From the IMG/VR virus record IMGVR_UViG_3300025410_000066, positions 1 to 29,724 of that record: a DNA stretch of 29,724 nucleotides, one strand, 5' to 3'. Below the pieces are notes generated by a model. That model was not told the origin of the DNA. It made no database searches and saw only the letters and a list, made by a program, of their open reading frames with translations. Each line of letters begins with the position of its first letter. Position 1 is the stretch's first letter. This document shows positions 5,743-29,724 of the stretch, one piece after another. The position numbers and the translations under genes were made by a program. The DNA is from a virus.

Positions 5743-6525
5743 ATGGCACTTACGAAGGAACAGAAAGAGTTCCGCTCAAAACTATTGGGCGGGTCAGATG
5801 CAAACACAATCATGGGAGGTGATGAAGAACGTATTTTTGAATTATGGAAAATAAAAAGAGGGAAAGCAGAAGACCATGATCTGTCCGACGCACTTCCAGT
5901 ACAGATGGGAGTTTTTACAGAACCTTTTAACATACAGTGGTTTACAAAGCAGACGGGTCGTCATGTTACGGATAACGGTACCCAAAAGATTAGTTTATCT
6001 CACTCTTTCATGGGATGCACCCTTGATGGACTCACAGACGACGGCCTCACCGTTTTTGAAGCTAAACACGTTTCTGCGTTCTCTAAGGACGACGAAATTA
6101 TGGACCGCTACTATCCCCAGCTAACGCATAACATGCTGGTGTGCGGCGTGGAGAAGGCTGTCCTATCCGTCTTTTACGGCAACCATAAGTGGGAGAAGTA
6201 CGACATAAACCTTGATGCGATATACGCGGATATCTTGATTGACGCGGAAAAACGCTTTTGGGATTGTGTCAAAAATGGCACCCCGCCAGTTACAATTACC
6301 GTACGGCCTCCGGTAGATGCGGTGCGCCGCGTTGATATGACGGGCAACAATGCGTGGGCTAACTTCGCGAATCAGTTGCAGTTAAACTCAGCGGGTAAGA
6401 AAATGTACGATGAAGCCGCCTCTGGCCTGAAGGGTCTGATGGAGGAAGATATGGCGGAAGCGTATGGATACGGTGTCAGCATCAAGCGCGATAAGCGGGG
6501 TGCGTTAAGATTGAAGGGGGATTGA
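5743..6525 (+). CDS. YqaJ-like viral recombinase exonuclease (260 aa)
   Basis: Matches the YqaJ/lambda-exonuclease class: LLGGSDANTIMGG (residues 14-26), GVFTEP (E60), CTLDGL (D95), VFEAKH (E106, K108) and YYPQLTHNMLVCG (residues 123-135). These supply the acidic residues and lysine of the metal-dependent active site. The enzyme would resect double-stranded DNA ends 5' to 3' to feed a single-strand annealing protein; the ERF gene at 7115 is its natural partner. The C-terminal 60 residues are helical and more variable. It follows a 64-bp gap that may hold a promoter. Confidence 0.85.
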   Translation: MALTKEQKEFRSKLLGGSDANTIMGGDEERIFELWKIKRGKAEDHDLSDALPVQMGVFTEPFNIQWFTKQTGRHVTDNGTQKISLSHSFMGCTLDGLTDDGLTVFEAKHVSAFSKDDEIMDRYYPQLTHNMLVCGVEKAVLSVFYGNHKWEKYDINLDAIYADILIDAEKRFWDCVKNGTPPVTITVRPPVDAVRRVDMTGNNAWANFANQLQLNSAGKKMYDEAASGLKGLMEEDMAEAYGYGVSIKRDKRGALRLKGD

Positions 6526-9999: not shown

Positions 10000-10512
10000 T
10001 TATTCTACCATACGAAACGCTATATTTTCAACCCTTGATACGCGACCGCCCCAACCTTTTCCAAAAGTGGGCCACGTAGGAAGTCCTTGTAGGAAAGCTA
10101 ACCGGGCTTCGCAGATTCGCGTTGCAGTTTCACGACCGTTTGCCTCTTCAGCAGCAGCAATTGTTTCTGGCCCGACTTGTCCGTCTTGACCCACACCGCA
10201 TATCTGCTGGAGGGTTTTTGCCGCACGGCTTACCCCGCTATTAACAGCCATATCAAAAGTGGCATAGTCAATGCCAAGAGGAAGTGAGTCGCCATTTATC
10301 TTATCCCAGTAGTTCTTTTTGTACAGGGGGGCGACATCCTGAATCGTCAAGTTCATCATGTCCATCTCCGTCACCGGATGACCGACCCAATCTTCCCAGA
10401 CTTTTTGAGTAACGCCGTGGTTTGTCCGGCCCCCCGGATCACGTGCATCATTCACATAGCCCCCTTCTTCCTTAAGAACAAGGGCTAAACACTGCTCAAA
10501 ATTATCTTTCAT
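10000..10512 (-). CDS. GH108-type N-acetylmuramidase endolysin (170 aa)
   Basis: Residues 1-95 carry the GH108 pattern: LALVLKEEGGYVNDARDPGG (catalytic Glu in EGGY, probably E16), RTNHGVTQ, then YKKNYWDKINGDSLPLGIDY. The C-terminal part (GVSRAAKTLQQICGVGQDGQ, VGPETIAAA) is the predicted peptidoglycan-binding domain that accompanies this family. It would cleave the glycan backbone of peptidoglycan at lysis. No signal peptide or anchor is seen, so export depends on the holin. It is the last gene of the late operon, and its ATG overlaps the stop of the Rz1-like gene. Confidence 0.9.
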   Translation of the reverse strand: MKDNFEQCLALVLKEEGGYVNDARDPGGRTNHGVTQKVWEDWVGHPVTEMDMMNLTIQDVAPLYKKNYWDKINGDSLPLGIDYATFDMAVNSGVSRAAKTLQQICGVGQDGQVGPETIAAAEEANGRETATRICEARLAFLQGLPTWPTFGKGWGGRVSRVENIAFRMVE

Positions 10513-19100: not shown

Positions 19101-19887
19101 GCTGGCCGTAAGGGTTTTGATATTGGTTCATATACTGCTGATAGGCGGTGGATAACTGATTTTGAAGCTGCTGTTGTTCCGTCGCGCCCGCACCGTATTG
19201 CGCTTGCGCTTGTTGCAATGCAGCATTCTGTCCGCCCGTCGCAAGGTTAGCAAGGTTAAGTGCATTTTGAGACAAAAGATTGCGGTTTTGTAATTGCGTC
19301 GCAAGGTCAACACCCTGCTGCTGATTAAACTCACCAAGGGCCTGAGTGTAACCTTGGTTATAAAGATTAGAAATCGTCGCGTTGTTCGCCAAGTCTTGCT
19401 GACGCGCTAATTCCGCCTGAGCAATACCAGCGCGGTCGCCACCAAAAGCACCCTTTTGCATCGCATTGCCCAACACTTGTTGTTGCTGTTGGGCATTTGT
19501 TTGGTTAATATTCCCCATCGCTGCGTTAGCAACGTCACTAATATATGGACTCATATATTGATTAACGCCACCCAAAGAAAATTGTCGCATCTGCATTGGG
19601 GTAGCCGCTTGGGAAGTCATCTGTTCCGCCGCTGAGTAAAACGGCTGAGTCCCACCCTGCAAATTCGTAATGTTATTGATCGCGTTGATTTGCTCCGGCG
19701 TCTGGGGTGCGACAAGGCCGGGGACAAAACCCGCATATTGCTGTGCGGTCGATGGGTCGTAATATGGAGCGCCCGTTGATCCGATAAGACCGCCACCCTC
19801 ACCAAGAAGCTGCGTTAACGCATTGGTTATCGCGGGGTTTGCTTGGTACGTCGTTGACGATGGACCGCCACTAAATAAATTACCCAT
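16135..19887 (-). CDS. large virion protein with lysozyme-like segment and DUF4214-like region (1250 aa)
   Basis: The N-terminal 260 residues are Gln/Asn-rich helices (YMSPYISDVANAAMGNINQT, GNAMQKGAFGGDRAGIAQAE), a pattern frequent in phage tail/ejection proteins. Around 340-375, NAIYEKDFGRAYNPTTDSYW resembles DUF4214. Four GG beads follow, including KEGGAVKGYATDGAV, NRGGRIHSAKGGLIP and NRGGVVGHYAPGGA. Residues about 675-790 (FVKLSQGESGHRF, NSSAGPFQLHVGG, WTANEIAKNGANAWTV) look like a lysozyme-like transglycosylase with E in GESGH. The C-terminal 350 residues are helical. ATG 19887 fits AAGGG better than ATG 19893. Probably an internal or ejected virion protein. Confidence 0.6.
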   Translation of the reverse strand: MGNLFSGGPSSTTYQANPAITNALTQLLGEGGGLIGSTGAPYYDPSTAQQYAGFVPGLVAPQTPEQINAINNITNLQGGTQPFYSAAEQMTSQAATPMQMRQFSLGGVNQYMSPYISDVANAAMGNINQTNAQQQQQVLGNAMQKGAFGGDRAGIAQAELARQQDLANNATISNLYNQGYTQALGEFNQQQGVDLATQLQNRNLLSQNALNLANLATGGQNAALQQAQAQYGAGATEQQQLQNQLSTAYQQYMNQYQNPYGQLGWLGSLISGAAPAMGGTTTGQPASPSIANTIGGIGTMFSALGKIPGLGFKEGGAVKGYATDGAVTAPKTDPAVTDALNAIYEKDFGRAYNPTTDSYWADQIASGKDSLSNMAQLQSDIAGGAQGFDRFALQHAMANKPMVDAYNAYGTLANSGNASLGDLRNSYNSYLASMRPTSGVALPSRAISGASPFASLLASLAGAGAGLGAGTSGSDSSGLTDATASGLIGRGHGEPSTARNANYSSDFRSSNGPIASPGGYGPYSAGGGGGASFNFGGPLGGLLAGIGAALTGGSTESKIPKEEGYTGVTSSMGPDKEENRGGRIHSAKGGLIPTSYGLMTKDDLAQLNADVFGSGVSNDTPSEQAFGAADVLSGMNRGGVVGHYAPGGAATDDSSDEAPVADTSVIQNSAKNAGIPVDQFVKLSQGESGHRFKLGDDNSSAGPFQLHVGGASKQYPNPGKGDDFFNEMHPDLAEKLTPQQKAAYINDPSHLQETSDWTANEIAKNGANAWTVARQQGLLGARQADMPYVNAKNAAAQAGDQTGQGSQNKSILSGLFPGLADPERLALFKFGATLAGTPGPFGYGLAKAADAYANQLVESQKLASESNLRAAQAEAQKGEAITKRATLGRAGALVSTMNPDGSISLQQIPIGGMGGGQSSAAAPSIGGGEFNIPPASQSGTTGGPSGGGAGPSTGAPSAPTAPVGPEKAKPLQTFAYGSIREDGLNADKKNAAIQQEIDAINNDVSSQYGPRSQQLATQADAIQNTATKEGSAAYNGRQDLQTLTKAVASQDSTGLLASGIQKAFRDRMANYAQTVGAMTGNDLGWSDKLSAQEQANKIATWASVQQGRHAGFITQGLENAFPTGALQPETQRSLLASMITQNKRAQDLQNFTTDYNQKTNNLGWNAEKVFQKTNPPSEYARDAQAIEALMALSDKTPAGQGNLHPNPITDLMNRKYGPKSAEYFDQYVHNLYVKTGDPRFAVHNLSRYFE

Positions 19888-20350
19888 GACCATTTACCCT
19901 TGCATAATCTTCGTTATACAAAAAGAATGACCCCGCTTTAGGGAAATGTCTTTCGTACAGTTTAACTTTGGCTTCCGTCCTGTGATTTGCGACAACACCG
20001 ATAACAAGCGGTATCTGCATTTCGTCGGAACATTTTTTAGCGAACGTAATTAGTGATTTGACGCGGGTAGATCTGCGGTAATCAGGGTGGACGAAATTGA
20101 ACAATTCATTAAGATGAAAGTCTTTTCCGTACCATAGCTGGTCAATAATAAGGCCAATCATTGCCTCAATTTGACCCTCACCAATAACCCCAACAACACC
20201 CTTACCAGCATTAATCATATTTGTGATGATATCATGCGTTTTTTCTTCGTCGTATTGAAAAACGCCATTCTCATCATGCATCATTTTAAGCAGATCAATG
20301 ATTTGATCCACATCTTCAGCAGTAGCAACTTTGACCTTATAATCAGTCAT
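19880..20350 (-). CDS. GNAT-family N-acetyltransferase (156 aa)
   Basis: VKVATAEDVDQIIDLLKMMH is the usual GNAT N-terminus. AMIGLIIDQLWYGKDFHLNE is strand 4, and LFNFVHPDYRRSTRVKSLIT supplies the acetyl-CoA-binding V-H/x-P-x-x-R-x-x-x-(V/I) segment, followed by FAKKCSDEMQIPLVIGVVAN and the C-terminal YERHFPKAGSFFLYNEDY. Substrate unknown. GNAT genes are recurrently placed between structural genes of alphaproteobacterial and marine short-tailed phages, so it may modify virion or host proteins. It overlaps the next gene by 8 nt. Confidence 0.75.
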   Translation of the reverse strand: MTDYKVKVATAEDVDQIIDLLKMMHDENGVFQYDEEKTHDIITNMINAGKGVVGVIGEGQIEAMIGLIIDQLWYGKDFHLNELFNFVHPDYRRSTRVKSLITFAKKCSDEMQIPLVIGVVANHRTEAKVKLYERHFPKAGSFFLYNEDYARVNGHG

Positions 20351-22167: not shown

Positions 22168-22509
22168 TTAACTATAAGATACCGCCACAACCATGCCAGA
22201 TCCCGGCACAACAAGTATGGAGTTGTGTACGGGCAACATAACGCTGTAAACCCCGACAGTAGCGGGAATTGTATATATTCTGGTTCCGCTTGTCGTTGCG
22301 GTGCTGGTCGCATCATAAATCGTACCAGCGCTACCCGCTACAATAACGGAGACGTTGGCGACCCACCCCAACCTTGGCGTCAAAAGAGTAGCGGAGGAAA
22401 TTTCCCCGCTGTTCATTACCCCCGCCAGATTGGAGGTTGTCTGCCCCCAATTGTTGATAGCCTGTACCGCATTTTTATGTGCGCTTAATATGTCGTCAAG
22501 CGATGCCAT
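22168..22509 (-). CDS. small virion-associated-type protein (113 aa)
   Basis: ATG 22509 forms a TGATG overlap with the stop of the large hub-like gene, with GGGAG upstream; an upstream in-frame start at 22620 is unlikely. MASLDDILSAHKNAVQAINN is a helical start common in small phage structural proteins, followed by a beta-rich remainder (RLGWVANVSVIVAGSAGTIY, TIPATVGVYSVMLPVHNSIL, PGSGMVVAVSYS). The beta part could be a receptor-distal fibre or decoration domain. A 60-bp non-coding gap follows before the next gene. Confidence 0.6.
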   Translation of the reverse strand: MASLDDILSAHKNAVQAINNWGQTTSNLAGVMNSGEISSATLLTPRLGWVANVSVIVAGSAGTIYDATSTATTSGTRIYTIPATVGVYSVMLPVHNSILVVPGSGMVVAVSYS

Positions 22510-25500
22510 CAGTATCTCCCATCTGGTTGATAACGGTATCTTAATCCGCCTAAACGCCACCAAGTGTTGGAATCGTTTGAGAAGAACAATAGGCGGATAA
22601 ATCGGGCGCGGATGCGGCAAGAGACATAAGATGGGGTCATTCCGTATTGGAACGTAAACGGACCCAGAGTATTTATACCGTTTGCGCCATCAAAATTTTG
22701 CGGCTCATCCGCATCGTTTGTAAACAAAATGTACATCTGTATGGTAGCATTGTAATTATCGCCGCCATTTGGTGATGTGGTTGGGTCGCCGGAATATGTT
22801 CCCCATACAAAGTCAGGCCAGATTTGGTCAACGAAAACAAGTTGATCCGCCTCCGCAATTTGGAAGAACCCGGTGGAGAAGGATGAGGTCATCGGAAAGG
22901 AAGCATTCCCCTGATACGCATTATACCCAACTTCATGTTGATAAATGAAGTTATCGTATCCCGTACCAAGTGGGTTGCCCAATACAGATTGGTCGATCCA
23001 AGCTGTGCGGCCTACAAATTGGCTAACCTGAGTCGCGCCGTCAAAGGCAGTACCCGTAAGGTTATAACCAAAGTTCCATTGGTTTACCGCCACGTTGTAT
23101 TTGATATACGCATTATTCTCACCGATGGATGAGGTTAATGTCGCCCAACCAGCGCCAGAGGAATAGCTTCCCGTGCCAGTCGCAACAAATGTTACCCCAA
23201 CTGTATTGGACGATGCGCCCAATGCGGTAAAATCCGTGTTGCCGACATATCCAATCGTATAGGTTTTCCCAACAACCAACGACCCCGCATAGGCCGTAAA
23301 GGATGGGTATGCGGTTGATGGGAAATACCAAATAATTTCGTTAAATTGCGAATTTATCGCGCAACGAATGTTATTTGTGTATGGTGGGAGATAAGCCGTT
23401 CCAGACCCCGTTCCCGTAGCGGTAGCGACAAATGTTAATCCCACTACGTTTGTCGTCGCACCAACGGTCGTAAAATCCGTTGTTCCAAGAGATGTTATAA
23501 CATATGTTTTGCCCGGAATAAGGGATGAAGGGGATACGTTAACCCCGCCGCCCGTATTGAGCGTTTGGAAAACAAAGTCCCAAGCGGGGCATGGGAGAAC
23601 TTCCGGCCCATTACCACGGTTTACGAAAAACTGCTTTTGGCTCATCCAATATATGTTATTTAGATATTGGCCGACCGATTTGCGCGAAATAGCACCGCAA
23701 TTTGATCCAATCTTGTTAAATCCATAAACAAGAGGCGCACCAACATACTGCATCGCCCAGCAGTCAATATCCGTCCAGATAAACGCCTGTTGCGGACCTT
23801 GGATACAGGTTACAATTTTATTGCCCGTTGGGATGCGGAAGCTACCCGCTTGATTAAGTGCGGTTCCAACCCAAGTGGTGGAATCTTGAACATCTGACCA
23901 GCGAAGAAGAAGCGGGTCTTGTTCTAACCCAAATGAAGAACCCCATGCAACAATTTGGCGTTGTGGCATTGCGACAAACGCGCCATCATTAAGAAGCGGT
24001 GCTTGGATGCTTGGTAAGTTAGCATTGGCGGAGGCTGTGTTAAACGCATACGTATAAACAGGGCCGCCAGCGGGGCATGCGACAAGAATCTGCCCAAAGT
24101 TATCCAAAGACCAGTCAGTAGCGTTGATCTGGTAGCCCGCATTGTAACTGGTTGCTGTACCCGTCCCGCTACCAACGCCAGTAGCGGTAAAAATAACGCC
24201 CACTGTGTTAGAAGACGCCCCAATCAATGTAAAGTCAGTGGTTCCAACCGTAAGAATTTGATATTGAGTCCCAACAATAAAAGACCCAGCATTTGTTATA
24301 GCGCCTGTACCCGTTCCGTATCCACCAACGCCATATCCGCCAGAACCATACCCCCCTGATTGAGACGTTGGTAATGGAGAAATGTAAAAGTTGGTATTGG
24401 GCATACCGGAATTTGCAGGGACTGGATTGGGGGTATAAGCCGTACCCGTACCAGATCCAACGCCAGTAGCGGCGAAAATAACACCAACCGTATTGGCGGA
24501 TGCGCCAATCGCGGTAAAATCCGTAGTACCAACCGATTGAATTTTGTATTGCTGACCAATAACAAATGAACCAGCGGCTGTCGCGGATGCAACAACGTTA
24601 GGTGCTTGGATTGTAAATGTAGGGGCTGTTTGGTTTGATCCTACCGCCGTAACTGTAAAAGACCCCGCCAAAGTAACGTTGTTTACCGTTACTGGGTCCG
24701 CAATATAATAATCACTGCCAACGGTATATGTGTGGTTATCAAGGTAAACAGTAACCGTTTGGCTACCCGGAGCTATATAATATGCGGGCACGCCCAATAA
24801 TCTGGCGGTTCCTGTGCCAGTATACGTCGTTGCTGTACCTGTTCCAGTACCAACCCCTGTAGCTACAAAAATAGTTCCCGGAGTGCTATTAGCGGCTCCA
24901 ATTAATGTAAAATCCGTAGTTCCGGCTGTTATAATTTCATATGTGCTGCCAACAACAAAAGCCCCAGCAGTCGCCACGGCAATCGTAGACAAAAATACGG
25001 TTCCCGTTAAACTGGATGCCGCCCCGTTAGATGTCCAAACTGTCGTTCCCGGAGTTTGAATGACGTAGGTGCGATATTGTTCTAAAGTAGCGGCATAACC
25101 GCCGGAAGACGTTTGGGATATTGAAATAGAATATGTTCCAACGCCGCCCGCAGTATAAAAACTATAAGTTCCAGCCGCTTGAACCGTGAAATTGCTTGCG
25201 GTTCCCGTAACGGTTACCAACGTAATGGTATTGCTGGAAATAGATCCAACAAACGTGCCATTAGGAATGCCTGTGCCGGACACCAATTGCCCAACAGCAA
25301 TGCTTGTAACGTTTGCGAATGTAACGGTATTTGTCCCGACAGCACCACCGCTGGAATAGGTTTTTGTAACAACCGCTGCTGCACTGCTGGTTAATTGCGA
25401 AACGATAAGAGTTCCAGCCGTTGTATTAGAACTGCTAATCAACTGACCAGCGCTCAATGTCCCACTGGTAATAGCTGTAACCGTTAATACCGCTGCGCTG

Positions 25501-26237
25501 CTACTACCATTAAAAAGGGCGGAAGCATTGGTGAATAAAAAATTGGTTTCAGGCTTTGTGGCCGTAGTTGCAATTTGTATTGTATACGTCGTGCCATTTG
25601 CGCTTGATACAGCATACGGCCCTTGGAAAACTGTACCACCAAGTGATATTGGTTCTTTAAATTCAATAAAGTCGCCAACAATTGCGGGTATTTCCGTATC
25701 TACAATCGTTACAATATTGCTACCCGCAGTTGTAGATATCTTAATTACTGGAATAGCCGTACCCGTACCTGTACCCGCCCCCGTCGCGGTGAAGTAGGTA
25801 TAAAGGTCGTTGGACGACGAACCAATAGACGTAAAATTGGTCGTTCCAGTGTTTTGAATAACGTAACTAATTGTACTTAATGTAGATGTAGCGTTAGCAG
25901 CATAATTAGCCCGGAATTGCGGGGTAACATCCGTTAAGGTACCGTTTGTAAGGATCTGCAATGACCCATACGCATTTGTTCCGGGGCTTGGCCCAACGCA
26001 ACCCAAAGCAAGATGATTTAAGTTGTTTAAATCATTGTACGCCTTCATTGACCGGACAGTGGACGATATGGCGGCGTTATAATATGGCTGCCATCCGCCC
26101 ATTTTTTGGGCCAGTCCAAGTTGGTTCCGGTCGGGGAGAAACCGAATCTGGTTCGTATCCGAAATAGCGGATTCGTTCAAATTCAGCGTCTTTATTAAGT
26201 CAACGCCGGGGACAAGTTTAAGTTCTGCACGGGGCAT
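22509..26237 (-). CDS. large tail hub/DNA-stabilization-like virion protein with repeat insertions (1242 aa)
   Basis: The N-terminus (VPGVDLIKTLNLNESAISDT, QIRFLPDRNQLGLAQKMGGW) matches the start of podoviral hub/packaged-DNA-stabilization-type proteins, with the N-x-(I/V)-RF-x-x-x-x-x-x-x-x-K-x-GGW signature. The C-terminal 420 residues continue that architecture (LRWSDVQDSTTWVGTALNQA, INSQFNEIIWYFPSTAY, NNAYIKYNVAVNQWNFG, CRIRARFIRLLFFSNDSNTW). Between and within these are about seven copies of a roughly 48-residue module with core (V)GTTDFT-x-IGA followed by F-x-ATG-x-GTGTA. GGAG lies seven bases before ATG 26237. The gene follows the adaptor gene, which suits a tail-tube/hub component. 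Confidence 0.6.
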   Translation of the reverse strand: MPRAELKLVPGVDLIKTLNLNESAISDTNQIRFLPDRNQLGLAQKMGGWQPYYNAAISSTVRSMKAYNDLNNLNHLALGCVGPSPGTNAYGSLQILTNGTLTDVTPQFRANYAANATSTLSTISYVIQNTGTTNFTSIGSSSNDLYTYFTATGAGTGTGTAIPVIKISTTAGSNIVTIVDTEIPAIVGDFIEFKEPISLGGTVFQGPYAVSSANGTTYTIQIATTATKPETNFLFTNASALFNGSSSAAVLTVTAITSGTLSAGQLISSSNTTAGTLIVSQLTSSAAAVVTKTYSSGGAVGTNTVTFANVTSIAVGQLVSGTGIPNGTFVGSISSNTITLVTVTGTASNFTVQAAGTYSFYTAGGVGTYSISISQTSSGGYAATLEQYRTYVIQTPGTTVWTSNGAASSLTGTVFLSTIAVATAGAFVVGSTYEIITAGTTDFTLIGAANSTPGTIFVATGVGTGTGTATTYTGTGTARLLGVPAYYIAPGSQTVTVYLDNHTYTVGSDYYIADPVTVNNVTLAGSFTVTAVGSNQTAPTFTIQAPNVVASATAAGSFVIGQQYKIQSVGTTDFTAIGASANTVGVIFAATGVGSGTGTAYTPNPVPANSGMPNTNFYISPLPTSQSGGYGSGGYGVGGYGTGTGAITNAGSFIVGTQYQILTVGTTDFTLIGASSNTVGVIFTATGVGSGTGTATSYNAGYQINATDWSLDNFGQILVACPAGGPVYTYAFNTASANANLPSIQAPLLNDGAFVAMPQRQIVAWGSSFGLEQDPLLLRWSDVQDSTTWVGTALNQAGSFRIPTGNKIVTCIQGPQQAFIWTDIDCWAMQYVGAPLVYGFNKIGSNCGAISRKSVGQYLNNIYWMSQKQFFVNRGNGPEVLPCPAWDFVFQTLNTGGGVNVSPSSLIPGKTYVITSLGTTDFTTVGATTNVVGLTFVATATGTGSGTAYLPPYTNNIRCAINSQFNEIIWYFPSTAYPSFTAYAGSLVVGKTYTIGYVGNTDFTALGASSNTVGVTFVATGTGSYSSGAGWATLTSSIGENNAYIKYNVAVNQWNFGYNLTGTAFDGATQVSQFVGRTAWIDQSVLGNPLGTGYDNFIYQHEVGYNAYQGNASFPMTSSFSTGFFQIAEADQLVFVDQIWPDFVWGTYSGDPTTSPNGGDNYNATIQMYILFTNDADEPQNFDGANGINTLGPFTFQYGMTPSYVSCRIRARFIRLLFFSNDSNTWWRLGGLRYRYQPDGRY
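23145..23530 (-). repeat. GTTDFT module copies inserted in the conserved C-terminal region (23145-23290, 23391-23530)
   Basis: Copy 23391-23530 encodes PGKTYVITSLGTTDFTTVGA and ends FVATATGTGSGTAY. Copy 23145-23290 encodes VGKTYTIGYVGNTDFTALGA and ends FVATGTGSYSSGAG. They are separated by the hub-type segment CAINSQFNEIIWYFPSTAYP, so each appears to sit in a loop of the parent protein rather than in a tandem array. Confidence 0.75.
24146..24969 (-). repeat. GTTDFT module copies, central block (24146-24290, 24434-24576, 24821-24969)
   Basis: Three well-conserved copies, each about 145 nt, encode A-G-(S/A)-F-(V/I)-(V/I)-G-x-x-Y-x-I then GTTDFT-(L/A)-IGA and F-x-ATGVG-(S/T)-GTGTA. They share clear DNA identity around the codons for GTTDFT and ATGVG. 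Two degenerate copies lie further N-terminal at about 24970-25078 (GTTVWTSNGAASS) and 25745-25875 (GTTNFTSIGSSSN). Confidence 0.8.
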
Positions 26238-26240
26238 AGG

Positions 26241-26957
26241 TTAACTCCGTGGAGGGGTGGCAATAGGCGATGGGGAGCGCGAAGACCAAGCGGGTCCTTC
26301 AAACTTCTTCCTGTATTCTTCAACCGTTGCACCCTTCAGAAGCGCTTGGTATTGGCTTTCATACGTAACCGCCATCTGTGGGTCATCGTTCAACTTACCG
26401 AAATTCCGTTGATAGGCGGAGACATAAATCATCGACGCTATAAGGAATAGGTCGGGGAAGTAAGTGCTTATATACGTAGGCGTGTTGGACGCACTTAATG
26501 TCGCAAATCTTTCCGTACCCGTTATTGTAAGCGGGTAGGTTGCATCTGGTATTGGCCCCAAAAGAATGGTTATGTTGTTCAATCCGGTAGTGTCCGTACC
26601 AGATCCGTACATTGCAAAATACGTTGGGGTTCCCGTAGTGTTGCCATTAAACACATTCTGAATGTATTCTTTGGAAACGTTAACCAATGGAAACACGGCA
26701 GAAGATGGGGTCGTCACAGATACCGTTTGGACGGAAATAAACTGCGATGGGAGAATGTTGACATATCCCTGAGACGCGGTCGTTGAATACGACGATGTAT
26801 CAGATACAACAGTCGCTAAAAGGTCCAAATCCCTTTGAATCCGCAATTCCGCATAAGAAATTGCATCTGGAAGAATAGTCAAGAAGTATGGATCAGTGGC
26901 GGGGACGACTGCAAGCGTAGCAAGCTGTGTTACATAGTCACTGTATGATAAAGCCAC
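26241..26957 (-). CDS. head-tail adaptor protein (P22 gp4/SU10-adaptor-like, 238 aa)
   Basis: The N-terminus MALSYSDYVTQLATLAVVPA, then FLTILPDAISYAELRIQRDL, and the middle LPSQFISVQTVSVTT follow the podoviral adaptor family of the SU10/P22 gp4 kind: an initial helix pair, YAE-x-RI-x-RDLDLL, then a P-x-(D/Q)-F-x-x-(I/V) strand. It continues with TYFAMYG, TILLGPIPDATYPLTI and YFPDLFLIASMIYVSAYQRN, also typical. It would ring the portal and bridge to the tail. Translation starts at GTG 26957 behind GGGGG at five bases. It lies immediately upstream of the hub-like gene, the expected order. Confidence 0.7.
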   Translation of the reverse strand: MALSYSDYVTQLATLAVVPATDPYFLTILPDAISYAELRIQRDLDLLATVVSDTSSYSTTASQGYVNILPSQFISVQTVSVTTPSSAVFPLVNVSKEYIQNVFNGNTTGTPTYFAMYGSGTDTTGLNNITILLGPIPDATYPLTITGTERFATLSASNTPTYISTYFPDLFLIASMIYVSAYQRNFGKLNDDPQMAVTYESQYQALLKGATVEEYRKKFEGPAWSSRSPSPIATPPRS

Positions 26958-28580: not shown

Positions 28581-29390
28581 TTACCAAGACCAAATAAATG
28601 CAGCGCCATCACCGCCGGGACCACCTGCGCCCCCTGTAGTGCTACCCCTACCACCACCGCCGCCTCCGCAACCAATGCCGCCTTTTCCCCCAGCACCGCC
28701 TATACCTGAAGCGTTTCCGCCACCGCCAGCCCCGCCTGCCCCAAGCATAGTAGGTTGCGTAATAAAGAAACCATTACCCCCAGCGCCGCCAGATGTCGCG
28801 CCGCCAGATATGGTTGGATAATTATAATTGATTGCAACAGCATACCCAGCATTGCTTGTATTGGCATTTGAACCTGCGCCGCCGGACAAAAATGTTGTTG
28901 TTGAGGCCGTTTGAGCCGCGCCAGCAACCCCCGCCTGACCCGCAATGGAGTTAAAAATACCAGCAGCGCCAAAATAGTTATTGGTCATTGCGGTGCCACC
29001 TGCGCCACCTGCGGCATTTGTTCCAGCACTGCCGCCATTCGCCGTTAAAAGTGTATATCCTGAGCCAGTTTTAGCTTGGTAAATAATTGATGTAGTCCCA
29101 CCTGCTACACCTGTTGAATTGGCCGCTCCACCTGTTCCGCCAGCACCAATAGATACTTGCAGCACATCTGGGATAAATATTGCTGGTCCTATCCAAGCCG
29201 TAAAAGCGCCAGATCCCCCACCGCCTGTTGCTGACCCGCCAGCACCACCGCCGCCACCACCTGCGCCGATGATTAAAATACGCGCCATAGCAACGCCACG
29301 GGGTTTTACCCAGTCAATGGTCGTGCCGCCACCATAAAACTCTTGGTAGTTAGAACTTAGTGGCTGAATCGTATTAAAAACATCTAACAT
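28581..29390 (-). CDS. glycine-rich phage adhesin/tail-tip protein (269 aa)
   Basis: Residues 28-60 (VKPRGVAMARILIIGAGGGG) begin the glycine-rich domain found in phage adhesins; the body is almost continuous Gly/Ala/Ser with spaced hydrophobics, consistent with a packed polyglycine-helix sandwich. The C-terminus runs through GGKGGIGCGGGGGGRGSTTG and ends GDGAAFIWSW. Such tips determine receptor choice. The upstream partial gene is a paralogue sharing TAS(S/T)TTFLSGGAG, GGIGCGG and a GDG-x-x-x-I-SW end. Confidence 0.75.
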   Translation of the reverse strand: MLDVFNTIQPLSSNYQEFYGGGTTIDWVKPRGVAMARILIIGAGGGGGGAGGSATGGGGSGAFTAWIGPAIFIPDVLQVSIGAGGTGGAANSTGVAGGTTSIIYQAKTGSGYTLLTANGGSAGTNAAGGAGGTAMTNNYFGAAGIFNSIAGQAGVAGAAQTASTTTFLSGGAGSNANTSNAGYAVAINYNYPTISGGATSGGAGGNGFFITQPTMLGAGGAGGGGNASGIGGAGGKGGIGCGGGGGGRGSTTGGAGGPGGDGAAFIWSW

Positions 29391-29394
29391 GATT

Positions 29395-29724
29395 TCACCA
29401 TGAAATTATAACGCAAAGGCCATCACCGCCAATGCCATTTGAGCTACCGCCACAACCTATTCCACCCTTGTAAGCTGTTGCCGTTGCGCCACTTACGCCG
29501 ACAATAATAGGTTGAGTTTGAAAAAATCCATTTGTTGTAGTGCTATAACCGTAATTTGAGGTTGTTGAGGTGGCACCTGCGCCGCCAGATAAAAATGTTG
29601 TTGATGAGGCTGTCTGCGCCCCAGTTGAACCAGTTTGGCCGTCAACCGATTGAAAAAATCCCATGCAAGAAAAATAATTTGATGTGGATGCACCGTTTGT
29701 TGCGCCGCCAGTGCTTCCGGGACC
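29395..29724 (-). CDS. glycine-rich adhesin paralogue, 5' end outside window
   Basis: The frame is open from the right edge and reads GPGSTGGATNGASTSNYFSC, then MGFFQSVDGQTGSTGAQTAS, STTFLSGGAG, FFQTQPIIVG, KGGIGCGGSSNGIGGDGLCV and IISW. It is clearly related to the next gene: the order of NYF, (T)AS(S/T)TTFLSGGAG, FF-x-TQP, GGIGCGG and C-terminal GDG-x-x-x-I-SW is the same, with a shorter glycine region. It is the C-terminal part of a second receptor-binding tip protein. The ATG at 29664 is internal, not a start. Confidence 0.75.
   Translation of the reverse strand, partial: GPGSTGGATNGASTSNYFSCMGFFQSVDGQTGSTGAQTASSTTFLSGGAGATSTTSNYGYSTTTNGFFQTQPIIVGVSGATATAYKGGIGCGGSSNGIGGDGLCVIISW

Follow-up and report, generated by a model that had tools for sequence, protein, structure and literature searches.

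Why should a single phage structural protein contain the same small unit seven times, and what would such units do there? The question is raised by a 29,724-nt virus record of IMG/VR (IMGVR_UViG_3300025410_000066), which is taken over its whole length and referred to here as the window. One 1242-aa frame of this record, P0001, carries seven copies of a unit of about 48 residues, termed module A, which together cover about positions 23145-25892 (Table 1). About seven such units had been described over this span in a first-pass annotation made from the nucleotide sequence, and this description is confirmed in count, span and motif, as a profile made without a given copy still finds that copy at 17-74 bits, and in 1000 shuffles of P0001 no score exceeded 10 bits with the full profile or 1.1 bits with the leave-one-out profile.

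P0001 as a predicted tail nozzle

The structure was modelled for L018, a 753-aa homologue with one module that stands in for the 1242-aa P0001, on the basis of 52 sequences (pLDDT 85.8, pTM 0.81; blocks over the module about 87-92). Foldseek placed this model closest to solved nozzle structures, namely those of SU10 (7z4f, E 2.8e-23), T7 (gp12, E 3.1e-11) and P22 (gp10, E 1.7e-10), with the nozzles of Pa223 and VP1 also among the nearest, and the sequence profile of the family matched VP1 chains named nozzle in the PDB (E 9.1e-11). On the minus strand, a gene for an SU10-type adaptor directly precedes P0001. Because of the fold match of L018, the profile match to nozzle chains and the adjoining adaptor gene, P0001 is assigned as the tail nozzle of a short-tailed phage of the SU10 gp17/P22 gp10/T7 gp12 type, and the hub-type virion protein that had been proposed from the sequence can thus be given a more specific name.

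In the nozzle of SU10, a platform is combined with a seven-bladed propeller, and the tip domains are inserted between blades 2 and 3 (PMC9509320). The strand order of the L018 model agrees with this layout, an agreement of order rather than a count of blades in the coordinates. The tip domains of P0001 would be followed by a Gly-rich return linker, propeller blades and a C-terminal platform, names that we derive from the alignment and the strand order. P0001 thus has the core fold and the gene neighbourhood in common with the nozzles SU10 gp17, P22 gp10, T7 gp12 and VP1 gp16, and tip domains set into the propeller are expected in P0001 as in known nozzles. P0001 differs from the SU10, P22, T7 and VP1 nozzles in the addition of seven A modules and a block of a second module, B, and it appears to have two core tip domains as opposed to the four Ig-like domains of SU10. 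The two tip domains of P0001 weakly resemble each other (29% identity, E 0.002).

A relative in GenBank, MW202675, is annotated as a phage stabilization protein and contains no module; the gene order there is similar, with an adaptor-size gene, the nozzle gene, an acetyltransferase gene and a gene for internal virion protein D. In the window, a gene for a GNAT-like acetyltransferase (19880-20350) lies inside the virion gene cluster, and an acetyltransferase is found at a similar place in MW202675 and MW202481. Further genes of the window code for two adjoining Gly-rich proteins that are alike in sequence (28581-29390 and 29395-29724), the first of them a tail-fibre-like Gly_rich_2 protein, for a GH108 endolysin (10000-10512) and for a YqaJ-type recombinase (5743-6525).

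Clean insertions into a shorter core

Most of the 80 related loci that were found with P0001 encode a protein of about 700-800 aa with zero, one or two modules. When six insert blocks (509 aa) are excised from P0001 at clean boundaries, 733 aa are left, and this core aligns end to end with the module-free 701-aa L037 at 55% identity; the excision raises the score of the alignment from 1482 to 1927 and lowers the number of gap residues from 547 to 52. The modules are thus separate inserts, as had been suggested, and since their presence, number and position vary among relatives, they are not ancient fixed domains. Along the chain, the first block precedes tip domain 1, the second separates the two tip domains, the third follows tip domain 2 and the fourth lies in the return linker; the fifth is found ahead of the last full blade and the sixth within a hairpin of this blade. 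Copies 6 and 7 lie on either side of NSQFNEIIWYFPST, the conserved segment that had already been noted to be flanked by two modules. Copies 1-5 probably lie with the tip (nozzle) domains. Copies 6-7 would be found on the same, cell-facing side of the propeller, as judged from the strand order and from the usual propeller rule, which should place the last two loops on one propeller face with the point where the chain enters the tip domains.

Table 1. Nozzle gene, core domains and modules in the window. Domain names of the core are those expected from the layout of the SU10 nozzle.
Feature	Residues of P0001	Window positions	Strand	Basis
SU10-type tail adaptor gene, adjoining the nozzle gene		26241..26957	-	PF24175, E 1.2e-17
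Tail nozzle protein P0001, 1242 aa (predicted)		22509..26237	-	PHROG 3287; L018 model compared with SU10, VP1, T7 and P22 nozzles; profile match to nozzle-named PDB chains
Core: putative N-terminal platform and first propeller blades	1-114	25896..26237	-	Alignment with module-free homologues; names inferred from SU10 layout (PMC9509320)
Module A copy 1, ahead of tip domain 1 (site 1)	116-164	25746..25892	-	Profile; homologue alignment
Core: tip (nozzle) domain 1	165-231	25545..25745	-	Shared with homologues
Module B, site 2; interrupted by a second B-like stretch at about 25179-25382	242-380	25098..25514	-	
Degenerate N-terminal part of module A copy 2, at site 2	382-~420	24978..25094	-	Profile
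Module A copy 3, which seems to interrupt copy 2	424-471	24825..24968	-	Profile; alignment
TGTGTARLLG, proposed C-terminal remainder of copy 2		24792..24821	-	Aligns with TGTGTAKLVGV of the single module of L018 at this place
Core: tip (nozzle) domain 2	483-552	24582..24791	-	Homologue alignment
Module A copy 4, after tip domain 2	555-601	24435..24575	-	Profile; alignment
Module A copy 5, within the Gly-rich return linker that precedes propeller blade 3	650-696	24150..24290	-	Profile; alignment
Module A copy 6, loop before last full propeller blade	904-950	23388..23528	-	Alignment; L018 model
Module A copy 7, hairpin loop of last full blade	984-1031	23145..23288	-	Alignment; L018 model

Fold and relatives of module A

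Structure prediction, which had been proposed as a check and gave a nozzle fold for L018, was also informative for the module: AlphaFold2 modelled module A alone (81 sequences) with a pLDDT of 92.7 and a pTM of 0.74 as three short strands and a helical turn, which strongly indicates that it folds on its own. The best Foldseek match in the PDB had an E of 4.2 and none was of the Ig type, 52 residues being short for Foldseek, and the sequence of the module gave chance-level PDB matches only. P0001 matched no family in Pfam at E 0.01 or in NCBIfam at E 1, and the module stretch of other carriers matched no Pfam or NCBIfam family either; in one tail-sheath carrier, a Flagellin_IN match (aa 256-301) lies outside its module. 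The BFVD matches of module A are mostly uncharacterised proteins of uncultured phages, the best six with an rmsd of 0.4-0.6 Å. A0A6J5KX00, A0A6J5MUG2 and others, from uncultured Caudovirales phages, contain module A by structure as well as by sequence, but the module itself is undescribed there. Conserved positions are mostly glycine and core hydrophobic residues, among the conserved residues there is no obvious ligand site, and even between very different phages the sequence has remained well conserved. A literature search for the motif of module A returned nothing on it.

In IMG/VR, at least 518 relatives were found with a 53-aa query that joins segments of copies 4 and 5, so that loci resembling these two copies are favoured. 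Eighty loci were retained, and with the modules masked their carrier proteins form 23 clusters, of which the nozzles are the largest. Fifteen of 20 representatives matched a PHROG, with a structural class first in all 15; the names include tail sheath, central tail fibre J, SU10-type adaptor, head-tail adaptor, minor tail, tail and giant virion structural proteins, as well as three distant nozzle relatives (PHROG 3287). At least three phage records of GenBank contain module A, a count that is a lower bound because the low-complexity filter masks the Gly/Thr tail of the module. In bacteria, module A is rare: an exact-peptide search of a species-level genome collection found it on one contig, and three of about 670 genomes sampled around that contig have it, one of them weakly. 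Two of the bacterial cases are good ones. The first carrier is a 200-aa pilin-like protein with a sub-threshold PilX_N match (L164:1979-2581), whose gene ends a run of N-methyl pilin genes on a 3.1-kb contig of a betaproteobacterial MAG. The second is a 5089-aa frame with a TPS secretion domain and PATR repeats (L171:2934-18200), in which module A occupies aa 2221-2267; the bacterial contig is 401 kb long, and the exoprotein gene there adjoins a gene for a ShlB/FhaC transporter. A further candidate, L170 (E 7e-4), was set aside as a probable chance match.

Optional domains of virion proteins are known. Phage Ig-like domains are optional and promiscuous, and they are common to unrelated virion proteins, within them or at their ends (Fraser et al., 2006, as cited in PMC9022992). 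Module A is likewise optional and present in several unrelated classes of virion proteins, but it has no Ig or other match in the PDB, it is inserted in frame and nested, and its roughly 48 residues form three short strands and a helical turn. Smug et al. (2023) described domains that are common to unrelated structural proteins of distant phages (PMC10684548), and module A is shared across unrelated structural proteins in the same manner; their study used ECOD domains, whereas module A is in none of the libraries searched, and the terms 'nozzle' and 'tail sheath' do not occur in the main text of that paper. Module A thus behaves like the optional virion domains but gave no match to their Ig fold, and it is in no library or paper that was searched.

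Exchange of modules at one site

Site 2, the linker between the tip domains, is a loop that several module families share. There is no insert here in L037, L004 and L017; the occupant is A in L018, L043, L070 and L080, B in L033, L036 and L062, D in L011, L013, L014, L022 and L026, and E in L009, L012, L015 and L025, and in P0001 the site holds B plus A. The B, D and E families are present at further sites as well, or in virion genes nearby. Modules are, moreover, found within modules. L017 has a B inserted into an A, between profile positions 17 and 18, and the joined A scores 45.7 bits as compared with 33.1 and 8.1 bits for the separate parts; L009 has the same pattern, and in P0001 a B is split by a B-like stretch. 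The apparent nesting of copy 3 in copy 2 brings a gain of only 4 bits and is based mainly on the alignment with L018. Changes were also counted on a tree of the propeller half with its modules removed, for which 38 of 52 rows had the anchor motif that was used to cut the region. They number at least four for A in the tip half, at least five for B, and at least two for A in the propeller half, counts in which gains and losses are not distinguishable.

Module B is about 65 aa long ('SGTL..GQ...GTYTVS.SQT'), had no match in Pfam, and is found at several nozzle sites (L036, L027, L033, L017) and in neighbouring genes (L088:1-735, L103:2755-4239), one of which has a phage tail collar domain. The small families D and E, which share this nozzle linker, were noted in L011, L013, L025, L012, L077 and L079. 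A D-like stretch is present in a gene just upstream of the nozzle gene (L027-L034). Module E has a further occurrence in L012, in a second gene, and giant virion proteins match it weakly.

Discussion

We consider it probable that P0001 is a nozzle whose exposed linkers have gathered small portable domains, with a role of these domains in contact and in adding bulk at the tip. Recombination between virion genes of co-infecting phages could bring the modules in, and the linkers and the module hairpins would be the tolerated points of entry. As copies 1-7 are all expected at the cell-facing end, a nozzle hexamer would display about 42 copies of module A around this end of the tail. The least certain step is the role, which would most likely be a weak multivalent contact with the envelope or a polymer coat, together with the tip bulk, rather than receptor specificity. 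Surface display and adhesion had been suggested by the first-pass annotation along with independent insertion and recent copying; the insertions are clean, the recent copying was not supported (see below), and display and adhesion, which we infer, are made more plausible by the kind of proteins that carry module A.

Selection on the modules was estimated by comparison with L003, a 77% relative, in the shared region. The dN/dS was 0.11 for copies 1-4, 0.10 for the core and 0.33 for the B block, values that are rough because dS is near or above 1. The A modules are under purifying selection and are kept about as strictly as the nozzle itself.

This similar selection on modules and core would also be expected under the main competing explanation, in which the modules are passive spacers that lengthen and stiffen the chain of tip domains, or brace subunits and fibres, and do so without host binding. 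We regard this as rather doubtful but as a serious possibility, since the tail of SU10 is stabilised by four Ig-like domains at the equivalent tip position, which change their arrangement when the genome is released (PMC9509320), and since the conserved module positions are mostly glycine and hydrophobic. However, close relatives do without modules, and spacers poorly explain the matches in the pilin-like protein and in the exoprotein.

It is unlikely that the modules are rapidly diversifying determinants of host range, a role that had initially been considered. The probable location at the tail end and the variable presence and number of modules would suit such determinants, and where phages shuffle domains, a link with host interaction is frequent (PMC10684548), but the equally low dN/dS of copies 1-4 and core, as well as the conservation of the module among very different phages, argue against diversification.

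Still less probable are ancestral nozzle domains that were lost repeatedly in relatives. L003 has at least the first five A copies at the same places as P0001, which would agree with an ancestral state, and the parsimony counts leave the direction of change open, but from relative to relative one and the same site is occupied by four unrelated module families, modules nest in modules, and A is found in unrelated proteins.

The divergence of the copies bears on their origin. They are 44-72% identical at the DNA level, and even in the closest pair, copies 4 and 5 (80% aa and 72% nt identity), the same codon is used for only 15 of the 37 residues that are shared among 46. With the near relative L003 excluded, the best match of every copy is in proteins of other phages, often unrelated proteins, and not in a sister copy, although for copies 4 and 5 the composition of the 53-aa query may have biased this result. 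Recent duplication within the P0001 gene by repeat-driven recombination, for which the DNA identity between copies had been taken as a sign, is thus the least likely explanation and already disfavoured: seven copies are the most per protein among the matches listed, the next highest number being four, but the synonymous sites are scrambled, the best matches lie elsewhere, and L003 shares the positions of at least the first five copies.

A nozzle with linkers that gather portable domains thus remains our preferred explanation. The known optional virion domains are mostly Ig-like and their use is unclear; module A is much smaller and without a solved relative, it is common in environmental phages, and the family is now missed by annotation pipelines. 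Because empty, occupied and nested sites coexist in one protein family, gain, loss and benefit of such domains are testable in one gene. More tentatively, with a reasonable though not quite even chance of being right, module A may represent a new family of tiny mobile surface domains of unsolved fold, moving among the virion proteins of unrelated phages and occasionally reaching bacterial surface proteins, serving as a general-purpose contact element, and competing with other families for the open sockets of the nozzle.
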